Source: Anaerolineales bacterium
GTDB lineage: Bacteria; Chloroflexota; Anaerolineae; Anaerolineales; Villigracilaceae
DNA: 18,694 nucleotides
Direction of reading: 5' to 3'
NCBI GenBank assembly: GCA_025938055.1
Contig: JAICQC010000029.1
Span: forward strand, 1-18,694
Shown in pieces: positions 4,847-18,694 of the stretch. The notes below the pieces were generated by a model. That model had not been told where the DNA came from, did not search any database, and saw only the letters and a program-made list of their open reading frames with translations. The number at the start of each line of letters is the position of its first letter. Within the stretch, counting starts at the first letter, position 1. Both the position numbers and the translations under genes were made by a program.

Positions 4847-7294
4847 ATGTTACGACTTGCCTATCCGGCTAATAAGCGGCTACCTCATATTTTCATTACG
4901 ATTATCTTTGCATTGTATGTAGTGCTATTCGCAGTACTTCATGAGCGTATCGGAAGTGGCATTGCATCCCTTGCCACCGTCCCGGTGATTGGTGCAAGCT
5001 GGTATTTTGGTGTCCGTGGGGGAATACTGACAGCCGTCCTGTTGATTCTGGCAAATACAGTCATACTACTCACGGGAGATGACCCTCACATTGAACAGTT
5101 TACTGCCCCGGGCTATTTGATCGGCAGTGCTTCCCTGTTCCTGATCAGTCTGGTGGTTGGGAGTCTGGCAAGGGTTACGCGCGAGCGCAGGGAAGCCATC
5201 CTTAAACTGGAAGAATATGAACGGGAACGCCAGGCACATACCACGTTCCTGGAATCACTGGGTTCCATTACCAGCCGGGCACTTGAGGCGGATAGCCTTG
5301 AGTCAACCTTGAAGATTCTTGTCGAGAGAATCAGCAAACTTTTTGAGGCAGATGATAGTTTCTTTTCGCTATGGAGCGAAGCAAAACAGGTGCCCATCCC
5401 CACCGTTGCATATGGCTCCATGAGGGATATCTATTCCTACATACAGTTTGAACTTCACGACCGGGTTCCAAGCGTCTTTGCCTTCGAAGCGGGGCAGCCG
5501 GTTGCAATCCCGGACATCAATGACTCTCCTCATATTGAACCAAAGATCGCGGCAATTTATCCCAGCCAGTCCCTACTTGTCATCCCGCTGGTTACGCAGA
5601 ACCGAAAGCTCGGTTCTCTGCTCCTGGGCTATAACAAGAGACGGTCATTTATCCAAACTGAAATGGAACGGGCTCAAACTGCCGCCGAGCAGGTCGCCCT
5701 GGTGCTATCGAAATCGCTCCTGCTTGAAGAGGAACGAAAACAGGTCCGGCAGCTGACCGCCCTGCACGACATTGCCCTGATCTCCATCGACATCGACAAC
5801 GAAGATGAATTGATCAATCGCCTGACCGATGTGATTGGTCAAAACTTATTTCCCGATAATTTTGGCGTCTTATTGTTCGATGAACAATCCGGGGTTTTGC
5901 ATGCCCATCCGTCCTATCGCTTCTTTGCTGAAGATGAGCGCCACATGATGGACGTGCCGATAGAGCGGGGGATCACAGGCCTGGCTGTACGCACAGGCAG
6001 AGCACAGCGGATCGGGAACGTGCGGCAGGCAAGTGAATATCTGGATGTGGATGAACGAACGATTTCTGAGCTTTGTGTTCCCATCAAGTTCAAGGAACGG
6101 ATTCTGGGCGTCATCAATGCCGAAAGCACAAAAAAGGATGCTTTCACAGAGGACGATGAACGTCTGCTGGTGACGCTGGCGGGACAGATCGCGACAGCCA
6201 TCGAACAGATCCATAAGGCGCAGTCGGAACGGAAGTGGCTTGACCAACTCGCCCACTCTAATGACCTGATCTATGCCCTGGCGCAGATCACCACTCACAT
6301 GGAAAAAGCCTTTAGCACAGGCGATATTATTCGAAATCTGGGCGAGGAACTAAAAAAGATCGATCTGACCTGCATTATGGCTACCTATAGTAATGACAGG
6401 AACCTGTTCACTGTCAGCTACACATCCATGGATCCCCAGCTCATTGAAATCGTAGAAAATAATCTTGGTTATCCAATGATTACCTATACATTTGCTCCTG
6501 ACAAACTAGGTCCCGGAAACCTCCTCTATCCCACCGTGTTATCCAGCCCTGTGGATGAAATCCAACAGATCTTCGCTCGCATACCCAGGCAGGGCGTCTC
6601 AGACCTACTTTCTGACATTGGGGTCGGACCTGAGAGAGAGCCGTTACGCCTGCCGCTTGTATTTGAAGAAAACCTTCTGGGCATTTTATGGATCTGGGGA
6701 GAAAATCTCACAAAAGCAGACCTGCCGATCATGTCCATCTTTGCAAAACAGATCGGGGTCTCCCTGGAGCGCGCCCGGCTCTTTCAGGAGGTCCAAAGCC
6801 TGGCGCTCACCGATCACCTTACGGGACTCCAGAACCGCCGCAGCCTCTTCGAGCTGGGGCGTGTGGAATTTTCCCGGGCGCACCGCATGCACCGCCCGTT
6901 TTGCTGCATGATGCTGGACCTTGATAACTTTAAGCAGGTCAATGACACACACGGCCATGCTGCTGGCGATCTGGTCTTAAAGGAATTTGCCAGGCGCTGC
7001 AAGAGTTCAGTTCGTGAGATCGATCTTGTGGGCAGGTACGGAGGAGAGGAACTGGTTATTCTTCTGCCGGAAACAGATCGAAAAACATCAATTCTGGTTG
7101 CCGAACGCCTGCGCGCCTCCATTGCATCGAGACCGATCAGGGTTTTAGACAAGGAAATTGCCGTGACGGTCAGCATCGGTGTGGCAACACAGGATGAAAA
7201 CACTTCTCAACTGGAAACCCTGATCGCACGCGCCGATCAAGCCATGTATATCGCAAAACACAAAGGGCGGAATCGCGTGGCAATGAGCAAATAA
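4847..7294 (+). CDS. Membrane diguanylate cyclase with three GAF-like domains and GGDEF output
   Basis: This 815-aa enzyme should make c-di-GMP from two GTP at the inner face of the membrane. Four membrane helices lie at about 12-32, 38-56, 58-76 and 88-108, then a coiled linker. Three GAF-like sensory domains follow, at about 150-295, 305-460 (GITGLAVRTGRAQRI, LGVINAES) and 475-640 (LGILWIWGENLTKADL; the most divergent). The C-terminal GGDEF domain (about 650-815) has DHLTGLQNRR, LDLDNFKQVNDTHGHAAGD and the active-site loop GGEEL at 732-736, a functional-type variant of GG(D/E)EF. RxxD (REID, 723-726) sits exactly five residues before it, so the product-inhibition I-site is present. There is no EAL or HD-GYP domain. 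It converges on the phosphatase gene with only 6 bp between the two stops. The signals sensed by the GAF domains are unknown. Confidence 0.92.
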   Translation: MLRLAYPANKRLPHIFITIIFALYVVLFAVLHERIGSGIASLATVPVIGASWYFGVRGGILTAVLLILANTVILLTGDDPHIEQFTAPGYLIGSASLFLISLVVGSLARVTRERREAILKLEEYERERQAHTTFLESLGSITSRALEADSLESTLKILVERISKLFEADDSFFSLWSEAKQVPIPTVAYGSMRDIYSYIQFELHDRVPSVFAFEAGQPVAIPDINDSPHIEPKIAAIYPSQSLLVIPLVTQNRKLGSLLLGYNKRRSFIQTEMERAQTAAEQVALVLSKSLLLEEERKQVRQLTALHDIALISIDIDNEDELINRLTDVIGQNLFPDNFGVLLFDEQSGVLHAHPSYRFFAEDERHMMDVPIERGITGLAVRTGRAQRIGNVRQASEYLDVDERTISELCVPIKFKERILGVINAESTKKDAFTEDDERLLVTLAGQIATAIEQIHKAQSERKWLDQLAHSNDLIYALAQITTHMEKAFSTGDIIRNLGEELKKIDLTCIMATYSNDRNLFTVSYTSMDPQLIEIVENNLGYPMITYTFAPDKLGPGNLLYPTVLSSPVDEIQQIFARIPRQGVSDLLSDIGVGPEREPLRLPLVFEENLLGILWIWGENLTKADLPIMSIFAKQIGVSLERARLFQEVQSLALTDHLTGLQNRRSLFELGRVEFSRAHRMHRPFCCMMLDLDNFKQVNDTHGHAAGDLVLKEFARRCKSSVREIDLVGRYGGEELVILLPETDRKTSILVAERLRASIASRPIRVLDKEIAVTVSIGVATQDENTSQLETLIARADQAMYIAKHKGRNRVAMSK

Positions 7295-7300
7295 CGCACA

Positions 7301-8320
7301 TTAACCGGATATTTTCAGCGCCACCATCGTTACATCATCCACGAGGGGCTTGTCTCCGCCGAACGCGCTGACAGCCTGCCGCACAGCCTGCAGAAGGTCA
7401 GGCGCGGGCCGGTCGGCATGCTGGTGAATCAGTTCAGCCAGGCGCTCCTGCCCAAACTGTTCGTTGCTGATACTCAACACTTCCGTCACGCCATCGGTAT
7501 ACAGTAACAGAGAATCACCGCCTGAAAACCCGATCGATTCCATCCTGGCATGAAAATCTTCAGCCAGTCCAATGGCTGGCGCAGTCGGTTTCAGCCAGAT
7601 GATCGAGGAACCCTCTCTGCGGCGCACGGCTGGCGGGTTGTGCCCCGCGTTGACATAGGTCAGCGTAAGCGTAGCCGGGTCAAACCGCGCCAGGAAAACG
7701 GTGACAAACGTAGTGAAATGAATGTTATGGATGTAGAAACGATTGATGCGCTCCAGGATTTCAGCGGGGGAATCTGTATAAGGGGCCATCGTCCGCAGCG
7801 CAGTTTGCAGGCTGCTCATGAGCATACCCGCCGAAACGCCATGTCCACTCACGTCTGCGATGACCAATCCATGAGTCCCGTCGCGGAACTGGAAGAAATC
7901 GAAATAGTCGCCGCCGATGATCTCGGACGGACGACTGAAGGCAGCCAGTTCCACACCCCGGATTTGGGGCATACGCTGCGGCAGCAAGGCACGCTGAACC
8001 ACCTGCGAGAGTTCCAGCTCAGATTCCAAGCGCCGCCGCTCATCTTCGGAGTAATGATCCAGACAAACCGCCGCGGTGTAATCCATTTCAAGGAGCTGTG
8101 CGTCCACATACCCGTGACAGACTACACAAACGCCGAGGGTCTTGTCATCGATTTTCTCCAGGCTGGTCTCAATGACGTGCAGGTGCGTTTCGATACATTC
8201 TTCATCATTGCCCAGGCAAACTTCCTTCTCCGGCTCAGGCGCAGTCTCCAGGAATTCTGTAATTTCCTTTTGCTTCTCCTCCAACCCTTGCTGAATACGT
8301 TCGTAAAGCTCAGTAACCAT
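7301..8320 (-). CDS. RsbU/SpoIIE-type PP2C phosphatase with N-terminal DksA/TraR-like zinc finger
   Basis: I place the start at the ATG at 8320-8318, which has a GGAGG four bases upstream; a longer in-frame start at 8446 would overlap the neighbouring gene and has no such site. The product is 339 aa. Residues 1-60 are helical and charged. Residues 61-92 form a DksA/TraR-like zinc site with C65, C68, C86 and H89 (LGVCVVCHGY, AAVCLDHY), a CCCH rather than CCCC set. Residues about 100-339 are the PPM output domain: the LPQRMPQIRG linker typical of RsbU, GGDYFDFF with metal ligand D138, IADVSGHG with D156, LLLYTDGVTE and the final DDVTMVAL. RsbU-type enzymes remove phosphate from anti-sigma-factor antagonists; the substrate here is not nearby. 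It lies 73 bp downstream of the methyltransferase gene on the same strand. Confidence 0.9.
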   Translation of the reverse strand: MVTELYERIQQGLEEKQKEITEFLETAPEPEKEVCLGNDEECIETHLHVIETSLEKIDDKTLGVCVVCHGYVDAQLLEMDYTAAVCLDHYSEDERRRLESELELSQVVQRALLPQRMPQIRGVELAAFSRPSEIIGGDYFDFFQFRDGTHGLVIADVSGHGVSAGMLMSSLQTALRTMAPYTDSPAEILERINRFYIHNIHFTTFVTVFLARFDPATLTLTYVNAGHNPPAVRRREGSSIIWLKPTAPAIGLAEDFHARMESIGFSGGDSLLLYTDGVTEVLSISNEQFGQERLAELIHQHADRPAPDLLQAVRQAVSAFGGDKPLVDDVTMVALKISG

Positions 8321-8372
8321 CCAACCTCCAAGTTGCTTGGTGCCGTTAGAACATTTGTCTGATTCTGACACT

Positions 8373-8378
8373 ATTATA
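8373..8378 (-). promoter_or_regulatory. Putative -10 box for the zinc-finger phosphatase gene
   Basis: On the minus strand TATAAT lies 52 nt before the ATG at 8320, in the 73-bp gap after the methyltransferase stop. No convincing -35 is present. It suggests the phosphatase can be transcribed on its own as well as by read-through. Confidence 0.4.
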
Positions 8379-8393
8379 CAGAAAAATCTTACA

Positions 8394-9122
8394 TCATGAG
8401 ATGGGCTTCCAAACCTCATATAAACCCAGATTCCCCGTCGCGCCATCCGAGTAAAAGGTGTCTGTGATTTGAAAGTGACTGGCTTGGGCTAATTCGCCAA
8501 ATTCCTTCTCATCAAAGTGATGGACGTACCGTAAACCTGCTCCTCCACTGCGCCAGTCGAGCAGATAATCATTTGCGTCCACCTCGCCAGGCGAAAGCCC
8601 TATCTTCGACCAATCCTGAATCCTTGCCTTGAGTTTTTCACTGTTCAGGAACTGCCAGTTGGAATGGATAAAGATGCCGTCATGCCTGAGCAAGTCATGG
8701 ACTACGCGCAAGATATCCAGGCGCAACTCAGTAGAGGGAATATGATGCAGCACTGCAAAGGCAGTCACCACGGACCAATTACCACTTACCAATAACTGTT
8801 CTTTAGCGGCTGACAGCTCCATCAAATCCATTTGCATAAACCTGGCAGAGAAGCCCCCCGGCTGGGCTTCCGCTTCCCGCAGCAGCGGCAGGCTGAAGTC
8901 TATGCCAAGATATGAGCCGCGATGATCGCGCTTCGCCAGTTCGCGCGCCAGTTCCCCGTTCCCGCAGCCCGGATCCAATATCGACTCATCCCCATTCAGC
9001 CTCTCGAGCACGCGCCGTACCCCCGGCTGGATGCGCTGGCGGGTCGCCGAGAAGGAGTCGCCAAAACGAGTGTAAAACTCCCGATTAATCTCAGTTAAGC
9101 GCGTTGCGATGCTTAAATCCAT
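8394..9122 (-). CDS. Class I SAM-dependent methyltransferase resembling Trm9/ALKBH8 tRNA wobble-uridine methyltransferases
   Basis: This 242-aa soluble protein has the SAM-binding motif I DPGCGNGELA, an acidic LGIDFS strand for the ribose hydroxyls, and AFAVLHHIPSTE as motif IV. Features beyond the general fold match the Trm9 family by eye: FYTRFGDSFSATRQRIQP before motif I (Trm9 has FSxTRxxxWP), a Trp at the end of HSNWQF, and RYVHHFDEKEFGEL near the C-terminus (Trm9 has RYYHLYxxxEL). Trm9 methylates the carboxymethyl group of cm5U34 in tRNA, a product of Elp3 action, and elp3 lies in the divergent operon. The eukaryotic partner Trm112 is not in the window. Family membership as a methyltransferase is sure; the tRNA role is inference. 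The start has no Shine-Dalgarno but a TATAAT six bases upstream. Confidence 0.85.
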   Translation of the reverse strand: MDLSIATRLTEINREFYTRFGDSFSATRQRIQPGVRRVLERLNGDESILDPGCGNGELARELAKRDHRGSYLGIDFSLPLLREAEAQPGGFSARFMQMDLMELSAAKEQLLVSGNWSVVTAFAVLHHIPSTELRLDILRVVHDLLRHDGIFIHSNWQFLNSEKLKARIQDWSKIGLSPGEVDANDYLLDWRSGGAGLRYVHHFDEKEFGELAQASHFQITDTFYSDGATGNLGLYEVWKPIS

Positions 9123-14722: not shown

Positions 14723-15289
14723 ATGAATGAGGGAGTATCTCTATTGAAGGCTGCTCAGAAACTTGACGAGGAGGCGCTGACTGCTATCTTCGATCAGTTC
14801 GCGCCTGCGATTTACAAATATACCCTGCGTTTATGTCACGACCAGATCGTGGCAGACAATATTGTGGGCGATGTCTTTGCTCAACTGCTCGAACAGTTTG
14901 GGCAGGGCAAGGGTCCGCGCACAAATCTGCGATCCTACCTTTATCAGACAGCCTACCACCTGGTGGTCGATCGCTCCCGCGACAACCAGCACAATGCGCC
15001 CCTGGAAGTGGCTGCGAACGCCTATGAGGGCGGACAGTTCGCACCGACACAGTCTCAGATCGAGGAACGCGTGATGATGGAGGCGTTGATCACTGCCATG
15101 AACACGGAACTGACCGAGGACCAGCGCCATGTGATCATCCTGCGTTTTCTGGAGGATTTCAGCCTCAAGGAAACGGCTGAAATCATCGGCAAAGAAGTCA
15201 ACAACATCAAGGTAATTCAGAACCGCGGGATTGCCAAACTCCGAAAGGCAATGGGGCTCCACCTCGAAGACGAAGAAGACAACTGGTAA
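14723..15289 (+). CDS. ECF-family RNA polymerase sigma factor
   Basis: The 188-aa protein has only sigma regions 2 and 4, the ECF layout. Region 2 (about 15-85) includes FDQFAPAIYKYTLRLC, DNIVGDVFAQLLEQF and RSYLYQTAYHLVVDRSRDN. Region 4 (about 120-180) has LTEDQRHVIILRFLEDFSLK and a helix-turn-helix ending NIKVIQNRGIAKLRKAM. The start has GAGG five bases upstream. Six bases separate its stop from the next start, a single-TM protein that is the likely anti-sigma partner. An ECF-like promoter upstream suggests autoregulation. The inducing signal and regulon cannot be told. Confidence 0.92.
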   Translation: MNEGVSLLKAAQKLDEEALTAIFDQFAPAIYKYTLRLCHDQIVADNIVGDVFAQLLEQFGQGKGPRTNLRSYLYQTAYHLVVDRSRDNQHNAPLEVAANAYEGGQFAPTQSQIEERVMMEALITAMNTELTEDQRHVIILRFLEDFSLKETAEIIGKEVNNIKVIQNRGIAKLRKAMGLHLEDEEDNW

Positions 15290-15295
15290 CCTGCC

Positions 15296-15946
15296 ATGGG
15301 CCTTGATCCCCACGATCAGGAAGTCATACGGTTACTCGCCAGGCTAAAAGAGGCGGACTCGGAATATCCACAAGAGTTACTGGCTACGCGTCGCCTACGT
15401 TACTTGAGGCGCATGGGGGAAATAGAGCTTGGAATTGGCAACAGGGTGGAAGCTAGCCAGGTAACAGAGAGTATAACGCCCCAGGCACCGCCTACAGTCA
15501 GGAGCGCACTTTTGGAAACAGTTCTCGTGGTTGCGATCCTTGCAGAAGCGGGCGCCGTTGCGTATTTAAATCGCGGCAAACTTGCAGACCTGCTCCAGAC
15601 GATCACCAGCCAACCGGAAGTTCAGGAAATCATATCTCCGCCTGAGACTGTGACATCTGCAGCGCCAGGAATAGTCAGCCTATCGCCAGTTGCCACGCCT
15701 ACAGTTCTCTCGCCCACCATCTCATCGAGCCCCACCGAGGTCATCGTCACTCACACAGGCACACCCAGCCCTGAGAGTTTGGCAGTCACGCTAACCGTAG
15801 TCGGTCCCAATAGTGGTGAGCCTACCCGGGTTGATTCCACGCCCGTCCCCAATGGAAACAATGGCAACCACTACGGGCAGACGCCGAAGCCCGAGAGAAC
15901 CAAGGAAAACAACGGTAACAATGATAACAAACCTCCCAGAGATTAG
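15296..15946 (+). CDS. Single-TM Ser/Thr/Pro-rich protein, probable anti-sigma factor
   Basis: The 216-aa product has a cytoplasmic N-terminal segment of about 68 residues rich in charged helix (QEVIRLLARLKEADSEYPQE, LLATRRLRYLRRMG), one membrane helix at about 70-90 (ALLETVLVVAILAEAGAVAY), and a low-complexity outer tail rich in Pro, Ser, Thr and Val that ends in Asn/Gly/Lys (NGNNGNHYGQ, KENNGNNDNK). No ZAS zinc motif (HxxxCxxC) is present, so it is not a standard anti-sigma. The role is inferred from position immediately after the ECF gene and the short cytoplasmic domain next to a membrane anchor. It could also be a wall-spanning sensor. Confidence in the gene is high, in the role moderate. 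Confidence 0.8.
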   Translation: MGLDPHDQEVIRLLARLKEADSEYPQELLATRRLRYLRRMGEIELGIGNRVEASQVTESITPQAPPTVRSALLETVLVVAILAEAGAVAYLNRGKLADLLQTITSQPEVQEIISPPETVTSAAPGIVSLSPVATPTVLSPTISSSPTEVIVTHTGTPSPESLAVTLTVVGPNSGEPTRVDSTPVPNGNNGNHYGQTPKPERTKENNGNNDNKPPRD

Positions 15947-16935: not shown

Positions 16936-17048
16936 GCTTCAAGTTTACACTAGGAAAATAAAATACGCGATAGCTGATGAACACAATGATTTTGCAATCT
17001 TTTGACAAACCTTGATAATTTCCTGTAAGGTGTTAAGCATTAATTTCA

Positions 17049-17057
17049 TGCTATAGT
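17049..17057 (+). promoter_or_regulatory. Extended -10 promoter of the riboswitch transcript
   Basis: TGC followed by TATAGT (17052-17057) is an extended -10 element. The predicted start near 17064 coincides with the 5' edge of the aptamer. A TTGACA at 17002-17007 is too far upstream to pair with it. Confidence 0.55.
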
Positions 17058-17060
17058 GTT

Positions 17061-17160
17061 GGCACAACATCCGATAAAGGCAAACCCGGCGAAAGCCGGC
17101 GACGCAAAGCTATGGGTCTACCGCCATGCTAGATTGGTCATGACCGCCAGGCCGCCGAAG
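17061..17160 (+). ncRNA. Cyclic di-GMP-I (GEMM-I) riboswitch aptamer
   Basis: The conserved core is clear: AAAGGCAAACC (17077-17087), a P2 hairpin CCGGC-GAAA-GCCGG with the GAAA tetraloop (17086-17099), GACGCAAAGC (17101-17110) and TATGGGTCTACC of the P3 5' side. The P3 3' side GACCGCCAGG (17142-17151) then supplies the tetraloop receptor, followed by CCGCCGA. This order and these bases match the GEMM-I class, which binds c-di-GMP. It precedes an intrinsic terminator and a secreted-protein gene. GCCAGGCC (17146-17153) can pair perfectly with GGCCTGGC (17188-17195) in the terminator 5' arm, an antiterminator. Ligand binding would hold that strand in the aptamer and let the terminator form, so an OFF switch is predicted. 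Confidence 0.92.
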
Positions 17161-17162
17161 AT

Positions 17163-17180
17163 CACAAAATGAATTTTGTG
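17163..17180 (+). other. Small hairpin between aptamer and terminator
   Basis: CACAAAA (17163-17169) and TTTTGTG (17174-17180) pair around TGAA. It would bring the two antiterminator strands together, stacking under the 8-bp pairing of 17146-17153 with 17188-17195. Confidence 0.55.
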
Positions 17181-17188
17181 CATTTTAG

Positions 17189-17216
17189 GCCTGGCTTCGA
17201 TAAGCCAGGCTTTTTT
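17189..17216 (+). terminator. Riboswitch-controlled intrinsic terminator
   Basis: GCCTGGCTT (17189-17197) and AAGCCAGGC (17202-17210) form a perfect 9-bp stem with a CGAT loop, followed by six T. It lies between the aptamer and the next gene, 64 bases before its ATG, so it is the expression platform. Confidence 0.9.
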
Positions 17217-17280
17217 ATCGGGTGGCTACATATCACAGCGCAGCTCGATTGGCATTCGGGTTGCCCAAAGGAGAAAAGCC

Positions 17281-17682
17281 ATGTTACGTAATTTCAAAGT
17301 CCTATTGTTCGTATTCGCTGTCCTCGTGATCGCCGGAAGTGCCTACGCCTTCGCTGCAACAAACACTGTTGCGGAGAGCGCCGCCGGTTTCAAGGCGAGT
17401 GTGGTCCCAGGCTATGCTGCGACCAACATTGTGTATGACCTGGATGCAACTGATCCCACCCTCGTCGATGCAATCACATTCGATATTTCGCCCAGCAGTG
17501 GGTCGGCGGCAGCGGCCCTCGTCAAGGTTCAGACCGAAGACGCCGGCACCTGGACGGACTGCTCCCTTTCCGCCGGTGTTGCGCCCGCCATATCCGCGAC
17601 CTGCACATTTGGGTCTCTCTCGGTTGAGGATCTGACCGCCTTGAATATCGTCGCCAGCAGCAGCACCGATCCGGCTCCGTAA
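17281..17682 (+). CDS. Small secreted protein under c-di-GMP riboswitch control
   Basis: I start at the ATG at 17281 (AAAGGAG at 17267-17273); a longer frame from 17176 would cross the terminator. The 133-aa product has a classical signal peptide (MLRNFKVLLFVFAVLVIAGS) with cleavage expected after AYA-23 or two residues on. The mature part of about 110 residues is small, acidic and predicted beta-rich, with ATNIVYDLDATDPTLVDAIT, a VKVQTEDAGTW strand and two Cys (TDCSL, ATCTF) that may form a disulfide, ending SSSTDPAP. I recall similar tiny exported proteins in Chloroflexota, without a known role. The neighbouring ER-type signal peptidase recalls the TasA/SipW pairing of Bacillus matrix fibres, so a surface fibre or matrix subunit is possible, but no homology to TasA is visible. 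Confidence 0.85.
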   Translation: MLRNFKVLLFVFAVLVIAGSAYAFAATNTVAESAAGFKASVVPGYAATNIVYDLDATDPTLVDAITFDISPSSGSAAAALVKVQTEDAGTWTDCSLSAGVAPAISATCTFGSLSVEDLTALNIVASSSTDPAP

Positions 17683-17718
17683 TTTGCTGCTCTTGAACGT
17701 GTTCCAATAAGATCTGTC

Positions 17719-17759
17719 ATTAAAGATAAGGCTTGGGAGATCCAAGCCTTATCTTTAAT
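17719..17759 (+). terminator. Strong 18-bp intercistronic hairpin, possible attenuator
   Basis: ATTAAAGATAAGGCTTGG (17719-17736) pairs perfectly with CCAAGCCTTATCTTTAAT (17742-17759) over a 5-base loop. The 3' arm is U-rich but no separate T-tract follows, so it may terminate partly or protect the upstream message, lowering signal-peptidase output relative to the secreted protein. Confidence 0.65.
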
Positions 17760-17809
17760 AAGACCAGATGAGACAGTACGCTCCATAAAACAGAGAACGC
17801 AATTCGCTT

Positions 17810-18694
17810 ATGAGAAAGTCCTGGCATTCACCGTCTGTTGCTGCCAACCTGATTCTTGCTATAAGCCTGGCAATCCTATGGATTTCCTTTGCACCCACCC
17901 GGTTGGGAGGAAAGGTCTCCTATATCATGGTAAACGGCATCAGTATGGAACCCGGTTACCATCTGGGCGACCTGACCATCATGCGTAAGGCGGCCGCCTA
18001 CCAGGTCGGGGATGTCGTTACTTACCACGACGCCGAAATGCAGGCTTATGTTATTCATCGGATTATCGGGGTGGACCAAGATCAGTTTGTACTCAAGGGT
18101 GACAACAATTCGTGGATCGATGCCTACCGCCCGACCCACGAAGAGATTATTGGCAAGTTATGGGTCCATATCCCTAAACTCGGACGGGTTTTCAAGTGGC
18201 TGCGTGCGCCGCTGAACATGGCTCTCACGATTGGTTTACTCGGAGGAATTCTTATGGCTGGTATGCTAAAACCTTCACAACGCGGAACGATGAAAAGGAG
18301 CCCCACTGGAAGTTTCAGTGGAGCACTGGAAGCCGGGCTGTACACGTTTGCATTTTTCGCCCTGGTCTTTGTAGGGCTGAGTGTTTTTGCCTTTGCTCGT
18401 CCGCTTAACCGGCCTGCGGACAAGATCCAGTATAAACAGGAAAGTCACTTCTCCTATTCTGCGACAGGAACGCCGGTGATCTATGATACGGAAACCGTGC
18501 GTTCAGGTGAGCCCGTTTTTCCGCGCCTGACATGTTTCCTCAACATCGGCTTTACCTATACCGTGCTAGGAACTGGATTACAGGATGTTTCGGGAAGTCA
18601 CCAGTTGATCGCGCGTGTCATGGACGAACAGAGCGGCTGGCAGCGCACGATTCCTATGAACGAACGGACGCCTTTCAGCGGCAATTCGTTTTCC
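17810..18694 (+). CDS. SipW/Sec11-type signal peptidase I with C-terminal extracytoplasmic domain (partial, 3' end outside window)
   Basis: The frame is open from the ATG at 17810 to the right edge (295 codons). Residues 10-28 are the first membrane helix. The catalytic serine is S45 in NGISMEPGYHLGD. Where bacterial LepB has a lysine, this has H83 in YVIHRIIGV, the archaeal/ER (SipW, Sec11) type. D98 (LKGDNNSW) and D104 complete the usual polar residues. Two further membrane helices lie at about 137-153 and 176-197. Residues 200-295 begin an extracytoplasmic domain with YKQESHFSYSATGTPVIYDT and the VRSGEPVFPRL segment, resembling the DUF5305 family as I remember it from archaea; this is tentative. 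Spacing and strand suggest it processes the small secreted protein upstream. The weak AGAGAA before the start and the hairpin suggest lower expression than its neighbour. Confidence 0.85.
   Translation, partial: MRKSWHSPSVAANLILAISLAILWISFAPTRLGGKVSYIMVNGISMEPGYHLGDLTIMRKAAAYQVGDVVTYHDAEMQAYVIHRIIGVDQDQFVLKGDNNSWIDAYRPTHEEIIGKLWVHIPKLGRVFKWLRAPLNMALTIGLLGGILMAGMLKPSQRGTMKRSPTGSFSGALEAGLYTFAFFALVFVGLSVFAFARPLNRPADKIQYKQESHFSYSATGTPVIYDTETVRSGEPVFPRLTCFLNIGFTYTVLGTGLQDVSGSHQLIARVMDEQSGWQRTIPMNERTPFSGNSFS

Follow-up and report, generated by a model that had tools for sequence, protein, structure and literature searches.

The window analysed here, 18,694 nucleotides of contig JAICQC010000029.1 (assembly GCA_025938055.1) from an Anaerolineales bacterium, carries at its 3' end a riboswitch of a cyclic di-GMP (c-di-GMP) class followed by gene A, for a small exported protein, and gene B, for a signal peptidase of the endoplasmic reticulum (ER) type. 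Together with a further exported protein gene, C, found behind B in relatives, they make up an export cassette that is real, conserved, linked to c-di-GMP and of Chloroflexota, and that is probably new. On balance, we favour reading these three genes as a dedicated maturation system for a surface assembly controlled by c-di-GMP. A preliminary description of the window had placed an aptamer, an intrinsic terminator, a 133-residue exported protein and a Sec11/SipW-type peptidase on one strand, and we recovered every part in its place:

17023-17057, plus strand: putative promoter directly 5' of the aptamer, comprising CTGTAAGGT (17023-17031) and a -10-like TATAGT (17052-17057)
17070-17160, plus strand: c-di-GMP-I (GEMM-I) riboswitch aptamer, detected by cmscan with the RF03167 (GGC) model
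17146-17153, plus strand: antiterminator strand GCCAGGCC, within the 3' strand of aptamer helix P3, complementary to 17188-17195
17187-17212, plus strand: intrinsic terminator of 11 pairs and a T run, its 5' arm GGCCTGGC being the switching strand
17281-17682, plus strand: gene A, a 133-residue exported immunoglobulin (Ig)-like protein with Cys94 and Cys108, assigned from its open reading frame (ORF), ribosome-binding site, family and AlphaFold2 model
17721-17757, plus strand: perfect 16-bp hairpin in the gap between A and B, by its computed energy a possible attenuator or 3'-end stabiliser
17810-18694, plus strand, open at the contig end: gene B, a Sec11/SipW-type signal peptidase (Ser45, His83) with an ectodomain starting at about residue 200, assigned with TIGR02228 and by alignment with full-length relatives

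The aptamer, the terminator, A and B share the plus strand, and their order recurs in relatives. That first inventory was accurate in what it listed and missed gene C, the DUF5305 domain of B and the EAL and HD-GYP domains fused to B elsewhere. Judging by related sequences, the contig end hides the rest of B (its DUF5305 ectodomain and cytoplasmic part) as well as C. Everything reported below on gene order, protein families, the riboswitch, the conservation of the alternative pairing, the invariance of the catalytic residues and the domain fusions was obtained by computation.

Relatives were gathered as 10 first loci, 15 further A loci and 76 B loci, yielding 96 ORFs with both peptidase and ectodomain; 14 matches that are essentially peptidase only, and the fragment G036:C363, were left out. 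The titles of all 10 first loci name Chloroflexi, Anaerolineae, Anaerolineales or Herpetosiphon, in agreement with the Chloroflexota setting proposed earlier, and at these loci A lies upstream of B in every case and C downstream in nine (the exception is L005). Under a distance rule, 91 of the 96 full-length B genes have A upstream, 89 have C downstream and 87 have both; counting L071, whose C falls outside the rule, C follows 90 and the complete A-B-C order is found at 88 of 96, so the supposition that these parts belong together is borne out. One of the five B genes lacking A, that of L084, belongs to a sequence that begins inside B. The start of C overlaps the stop codon of B or lies at most 30 nt from it in 85 of 90 cases. 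In 346 genomes from the class of G001, profile searches found A in 16 and B in 21, including all 16; the B profile also matched 39 of 400 phylum genomes and 73 of 301 order genomes, two samples that overlap and include peptidase-only matches. Between A and B, the window folds into a hairpin of -28.0 kcal/mol (17715-17775), and among the relatives with gaps longer than 25 nt a hairpin below -12 kcal/mol occurs in 69 of 76, compared with 41 of 76 after mononucleotide shuffling.

The aptamer passed the covariance-model check that the preliminary description had proposed for it: scanning the whole window with cmscan gave a single match at the gathering threshold, to RF03167 (c-di-GMP-I-GGC), with 65.2 bits against a cut-off of 59 (E 1.1e-13). 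It thus exceeds the curated cut-off for membership of the c-di-GMP-I riboswitches, whose models RF03167 and RF01051 form one clan, CL00126, and aptamers of sister cassettes fall to either model. The family assignment points to c-di-GMP as the ligand. With the Rfam models, run on L001-L010, L042-L058 (with 1.5-kb flanks) and 18 of the 76 later loci, an aptamer was seen 5' of A in nine of the first ten relatives, L007 being the exception. We also built a covariance model of our own, R1, from 20 elements; it scores the window, itself a training row, at 110.4 bits (17063-17165). Applied to 99 sources totalling 889,506 bases, which exclude L149-L151, R1 gave 28 matches (15 training rows and 13 new), all of them 103-347 nt upstream of an A gene on the same strand. 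Under strict filters, RF01051 was found in 55 of 80 genomes, at 1 to 12 copies per matching genome, and with so few aptamers per genome their placement before A is not due to chance.

Those 80 genomes come from a list of 87 cassette genomes (G036, G086 and G192 stand outside the list) and were the basis for the RF01051 and RF03169 scans, G001-G010 being scanned with RF01051 only. A c-di-GMP-II-GAG aptamer (RF03169, 66.7 bits, cut-off 40), of a different clan from c-di-GMP-I, lies upstream of two tandem A genes at L071; comparing coordinates, we found no other RF03169 match at a cassette in the 80 genomes. The link to c-di-GMP drawn in the preliminary description is well supported: the aptamer is confirmed, and the cassette is met again with another class of riboswitch and with fused domains of two kinds. 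The aptamers are also distributed unevenly within some loci. L085 (4664-5273) holds a lone second A with its own GEMM-I aptamer downstream of a complete A-B-C that has none, and L004 and L083 each hold paired adjacent cassettes with an aptamer at just one of the pair; in the tree of B, the L004 cassette without an aptamer groups outside the aptamer clade.

How the aptamer acts can be approached through its expression platform. A scan of the window returned two terminator-like sites against 1.3 expected by chance, so the weight of the terminator rests on its conservation. Behind the aptamer, 27 of the 28 cassettes have a GCCUGGC...GCCAGGC-type hairpin, which by reading has at least four U residues after it in 24. 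In each of these 27, the 5' arm of the terminator is complementary to the 3' strand of P3, so that a helix of 5-9 bp could form (at least 7 bp in 24, and just 5 bp in L005, L009 and L088), and matched changes preserve this alternative pairing in L079 (GCCAAGCC with GGCUUGGC), L061/L077 and L081. For a transcript ending at the arm, the antiterminator is computed to be more stable than the best arm-free structure by 3.4-13.0 kcal/mol in all 27; these energies leave out the ligand, kinetics and tertiary contacts. Judged only by complementarity and computed energies, an alternation between aptamer and platform is present in 27 of the 28 cassettes, and L122 has a different platform.

This layout suggests that the antiterminator would form when the ligand is absent, and that bound ligand would lock the aptamer and let the terminator form. 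We think it likely, from the alternative pairing, that c-di-GMP switches transcription OFF. The arrangement resembles that of Cd1, a c-di-GMP-I OFF switch of Clostridioides difficile in which, according to the accessible part of the source, the terminator is compatible with the aptamer and the antiterminator takes aptamer bases (PMC9262584); the genes controlled and the terminator itself differ. An OFF switch would have A made at low c-di-GMP, unlike a simple matrix gene. The opposite sign, with A produced at high c-di-GMP in an attached or floc-forming state, would match the expectation of the preliminary description, and homologous aptamers of both signs exist (PMC9262584, in the part accessible). 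It nevertheless seems somewhat doubtful here, because the compatible aptamer and terminator, and an alternative pairing that draws on aptamer bases, reproduce the published OFF layout in 27 of 28 cassettes and with matched changes. Of the c-di-GMP-controlled matrix system first envisaged, the link to c-di-GMP is upheld and the sign is possibly reversed.

Within 60 nt 5' of the aptamer, TGYAAK occurs in 22 of 28 cassettes, TATAGT in 17 and both in 16, with a spacing of 21-34 nt. The nearness of TATAGT to the aptamer in those 17 makes it probable that the transcript begins with the aptamer. The promoter-like site of the window (17023-17057) is absent from the list produced by a sigma-70 scan, and the CTGTAAGGT-like and TATAGT motifs with their variable spacing could possibly mark the promoter of a non-standard sigma factor.

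Gene B scores 76.7 bits against TIGR02228 (sigpep_I_arch; equivalog cut-off 51.85) and so belongs with the archaeal/ER-type signal peptidases I, and it carries their Ser-His catalytic pair: Ser, His and Asp are present in 101 of 101 relatives, the Ser and His of the window being Ser45 and His83. It is not an equivalog of Bacillus SipW, scoring 34.3 bits with NF046067 against a cut-off of 190. A separate P-type signal peptidase is encoded elsewhere in 21 of 22 cassette genomes, and the preliminary claim that the system possesses its own ER-type enzyme is supported. In relatives, B is longer and combines the peptidase with DUF5305 (PF17231; 30.9 bits in L001 and 38.5 in L002, cut-off 29). Among seven other B proteins tested, five were counted above the cut-off; those recorded above it by name are L071, L075, L063, L069, L067 and L004b, and L073 falls below at 26.4 bits. 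The fragment in the window has no DUF5305 match, the contig end falling inside the domain. DUF5305 is predicted to be an ectodomain of Ig/fibronectin type III (FnIII)-like fold, and B also has four helices of a length to span the membrane, and a cytoplasmic part that is conserved. Peptidase and DUF5305 are separate neighbouring genes in L127 and L144. B also reads as split in L083, L128 and L129, where in-frame stops were met in the genome search, so that damage or assembly error is possible.

The proteins retrieved from a database with the L073 B protein (see below) bear, among the names shown, signal peptidase I, plain signal peptidase, EAL domain-containing protein and hypothetical protein. 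That databases know the family only as signal peptidase I would fit a plainer account, in which B would be one more general signal peptidase serving many clients, A and C would be neighbours with no particular tie to it and the riboswitch would serve A alone; the hairpin between A and B and the lone aptamer-A unit of L085 would fit it too. Yet A and C flank B at the frequencies given above in divergent genomes, C sits within 30 nt of the B stop almost throughout, and a P-type enzyme is already at hand, which makes this account very improbable. We regard processing that is dedicated and under c-di-GMP control as highly likely.

The cytoplasmic end of B would provide a further route for the messenger. 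Pfam places an EAL domain there in L073 (193 bits) and L075 (158 bits) and an HD_5 domain (HD-GYP type) in L071 (117.5 bits); with our own profiles used to assign the other fusions, 17 of the 96 B rows carry EAL and seven HD-GYP. None of these 24 rows has a GEMM-I aptamer in the R1 scan, in which L126 offers only 345 nt before A. A further 26 rows have GEMM-I and 46 have neither input, nine of the latter being without A or with less than 460 nt before it. At L122 and L124, a separate HD-GYP gene adjoins A. Searching a protein database with residues 1-545 of the L073 B protein (a search that, like the one made with A, scored only candidates sharing most words) gave EAL (PF00563) in 47 of the 120 proteins listed, a share biased by a query that is itself of the EAL type, and HD domains in one (P0100). 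Another protein from this search, P0120, joins a signal peptidase to histidine kinase domains (PF00512, PF02518) in one chain and is possibly a further regulated-peptidase architecture.

Both kinds of fused domain look, from their residues, like receptors. In an alignment of 45 EAL sequences (43 of the 47 EAL proteins and two loci), reading finds the Glu of EAL, Asn, a second Glu, Lys, the Glu of GVE and the Gln of QG kept. Active EAL enzymes have the loop consensus DDFGTGYSS, and this loop is altered in all 45 and in all 17 of the fetched loci, DD being kept in three of the 17; the fused B proteins thus lack the complete motif set of an active EAL phosphodiesterase. Of eight fused HD-GYP domains (the seven above and L128), five have HHExxDGxGYP intact and three have it broken (RTE or RSE). 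At L121, a pattern search did not find the HD motif.

A FastTree phylogeny of the 96 B cores gathers the GEMM-I rows into one clade of 27, which includes L007 without an aptamer and the cut-off L084, plus the distant L122. This clade lies among EAL rows; EAL requires seven changes, four of them forced by starred branches, and HD-GYP two. The tree suggests that one c-di-GMP input has been exchanged for another, with the sequence of gains and losses uncertain owing to long branches and unresolved forks. Four kinds of device at one cassette (GEMM-I, c-di-GMP-II, fused EAL and fused HD-GYP) indicate that the messenger was joined to the export step more than once. Housekeeping without regulation is the role usually assigned to signal peptidases. 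A more tentative proposal, to which we give rather less than even weight, is that B is a signal peptidase gated by c-di-GMP: the messenger, bound inside the cell by a catalytically degenerate EAL (or HD-GYP) domain, would relay its effect via the membrane and DUF5305 to the external Sec11-type active site. Completion of export and the beginning of A/C assembly would in this way be under allosteric control. The window clade, without a fused domain, might under this still tentative proposal obtain the same control through its riboswitch. Such an enzyme would be, to our knowledge, the first regulated signal peptidase.

The candidate substrates of B are A and C. The ORF of A has AGGAG closely 5' of its ATG and a predicted helix at residues 2-27, and the end of the signal peptide is conserved as AYAFAAxNTV. 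Aligning 80 of 107 A proteins with that of the window (alignment A7), we find an aromatic residue at position 22 in 80 of 81 and at position 24 in 80 of 81; both cysteines are present in 78, neither in three and a single one in none, so A probably carries one disulphide. AlphaFold2 (mean pLDDT 84.9) predicts a generic Ig-like sandwich with a low-confidence N-terminal arm, to be compared with a jellyroll bearing an N-terminal donor strand. A of the window has no Pfam or NCBIfam family, with one insignificant Pfam line (E 0.71); TasA/camelysin and other SipW-cognate substrate families gave no match for A of the window, L001 and L007 (Pfam, NCBIfam) or L010 (NCBIfam). At E <= 1e-5, the A family numbers 692 database proteins, and the 120 listed have no Pfam domain. 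The preliminary description was right that A is a small exported protein, and its surface fibre or matrix role ran ahead of the evidence, the predicted fold being generically Ig-like.

The product of gene C is small and exported. It starts with a signal helix, has RTX-type repeats in all three relatives tested (PF00353; 46.7 bits in L001, 44.6 in L002 and 33.1 in L008, cut-off 23), and would accordingly be expected to bind calcium; LapA, the adhesin of the Lap system discussed below, is an RTX protein. Behind the signal helix, 70 of the 107 A proteins and 43 of the 95 C proteins carry the motif A.N[TSVIL][VI]P, compared with five occurrences in 613,227 residues of other ORFs. Tandem A genes are found at L070, L071, L110, L111, L127, L138, L144 and L145, and A is usually single. 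That A is mostly a single gene is one reason to consider a signalling unit without any fibre, in which A (Ig-like) and C (a calcium sensor) would be secreted or surface binding proteins and B-DUF5305 a sensor-protease. The receptor-like build of B, with its ectodomain, four helices and conserved cytoplasmic part, and the EAL, HD-GYP and in one case histidine kinase domains that accompany the peptidase, would suit this role. We nonetheless hold it to be unlikely: tandem A genes and the A-B hairpin fit a subunit needed in excess, and the motif common to A and C favours assembly or shared handling.

In the mechanism that we envision for a surface assembly, B would be the private Ser-His ER-type signal peptidase that cleaves A and C, and DUF5305 would probably retain the mature subunits at the membrane. 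The arm of A that cleavage sets free (NTVPxSxAG...) would most likely slot into a neighbouring A; a surface thread or coat would result, in which C would act as starter, anchor or tip. Input from c-di-GMP would come through competition of the GEMM-I aptamer with the terminator in the window clade and through EAL or HD-GYP on the cytoplasmic end of B in other clades. Whether A and C build a surface polymer is, in our judgement, evenly poised.

Related arrangements are known. In archaea, bundling pili have a SipW-like peptidase beside an exported fibre subunit, and haloarchaeal Sec11-DUF5305 sets have DUF5305 beside signal peptidases; we know of no c-di-GMP element in either. A was compared with bundling-pili subunits by PDB sequence search alone, and none matched. 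Unlike the products of the Bacillus tapA-sipW-tasA operon, A, about half as long as TasA, has no TasA family match and is predicted to be Ig-like rather than a jellyroll, and C is an RTX protein; unlike SipW, B carries an added DUF5305 ectodomain and, in some relatives, c-di-GMP domains, the Bacillus operon being under SinR. The likeness lies in an operon of a private ER-type peptidase with two exported proteins that share a stretch behind the signal peptide, which in TasA, as described in the accessible part of the source, is common with TapA and serves as donor strand (PMC9674648). A also resembles TasA in having aromatic residues at the cleavage site, next to which in TasA, according to the portion of the article available, Trp and Phe hinder LepB (PMC10269814).

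A second comparison, offered as an analogy only, is with LapD-LapG-LapA. There, as far as the available part of the source goes, LapD is a degenerate EAL receptor that governs proteolysis outside the membrane, so that a degenerate cytoplasmic EAL domain is likewise tied to outside proteolysis of a surface protein (PMC12564702). Unlike LapG, described in that part as a separate periplasmic protease releasing an adhesin, the protease here is a signal peptidase in the EAL chain itself. The same review of c-di-GMP effectors contains, in its accessible text, no word beginning with peptidase (PMC12564702). In literature searches that most subscription papers lie outside, we found nothing that names DUF5305, joins SipW with Chloroflexota, or joins a signal peptidase, a fused EAL domain and Chloroflexota. 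Each part is of a kind already known; we found no description of the combination or of a signal peptidase with a second-messenger domain. For Chloroflexota, a phylum with many uncultured filamentous members and floc inhabitants, the cassette is a candidate surface or matrix system, and it gives DUF5305 and protein family A a context. It also makes a c-di-GMP output of these bacteria testable with purified parts.

Several neighbouring features and other aptamers deserve mention. On the same contig, a GAF-GGDEF protein (4847-7294), possibly a source of c-di-GMP, is followed on the opposite strand by a SpoIIE-type phosphatase (7301-8446). About 1.3 kb upstream of the cassette, at 14723-15946, lie an extracytoplasmic function (ECF) sigma factor gene and then a gene for a 216-residue protein that has a single hydrophobic segment and a tail that is polar and of low complexity. 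Elsewhere in the cassette genomes, by reading, GEMM-I aptamers lie 5' of exported sortase-like ORFs (L014, L017, L022, L040), in tandem before MBOAT acyltransferase ORFs (L032, L037), before subtilase ORFs (L025, L030, L039) and before trypsin-like protease ORFs (L028, L029); together they may form a regulon through which c-di-GMP governs surface and secreted proteins. GEMM-I matches in tandem, apparently three at a time, also stand upstream of what reads as ruvB at L019, L031 and L036 (genomes G005, G002 and G007); a Holliday-junction helicase would be an unusual target for c-di-GMP.

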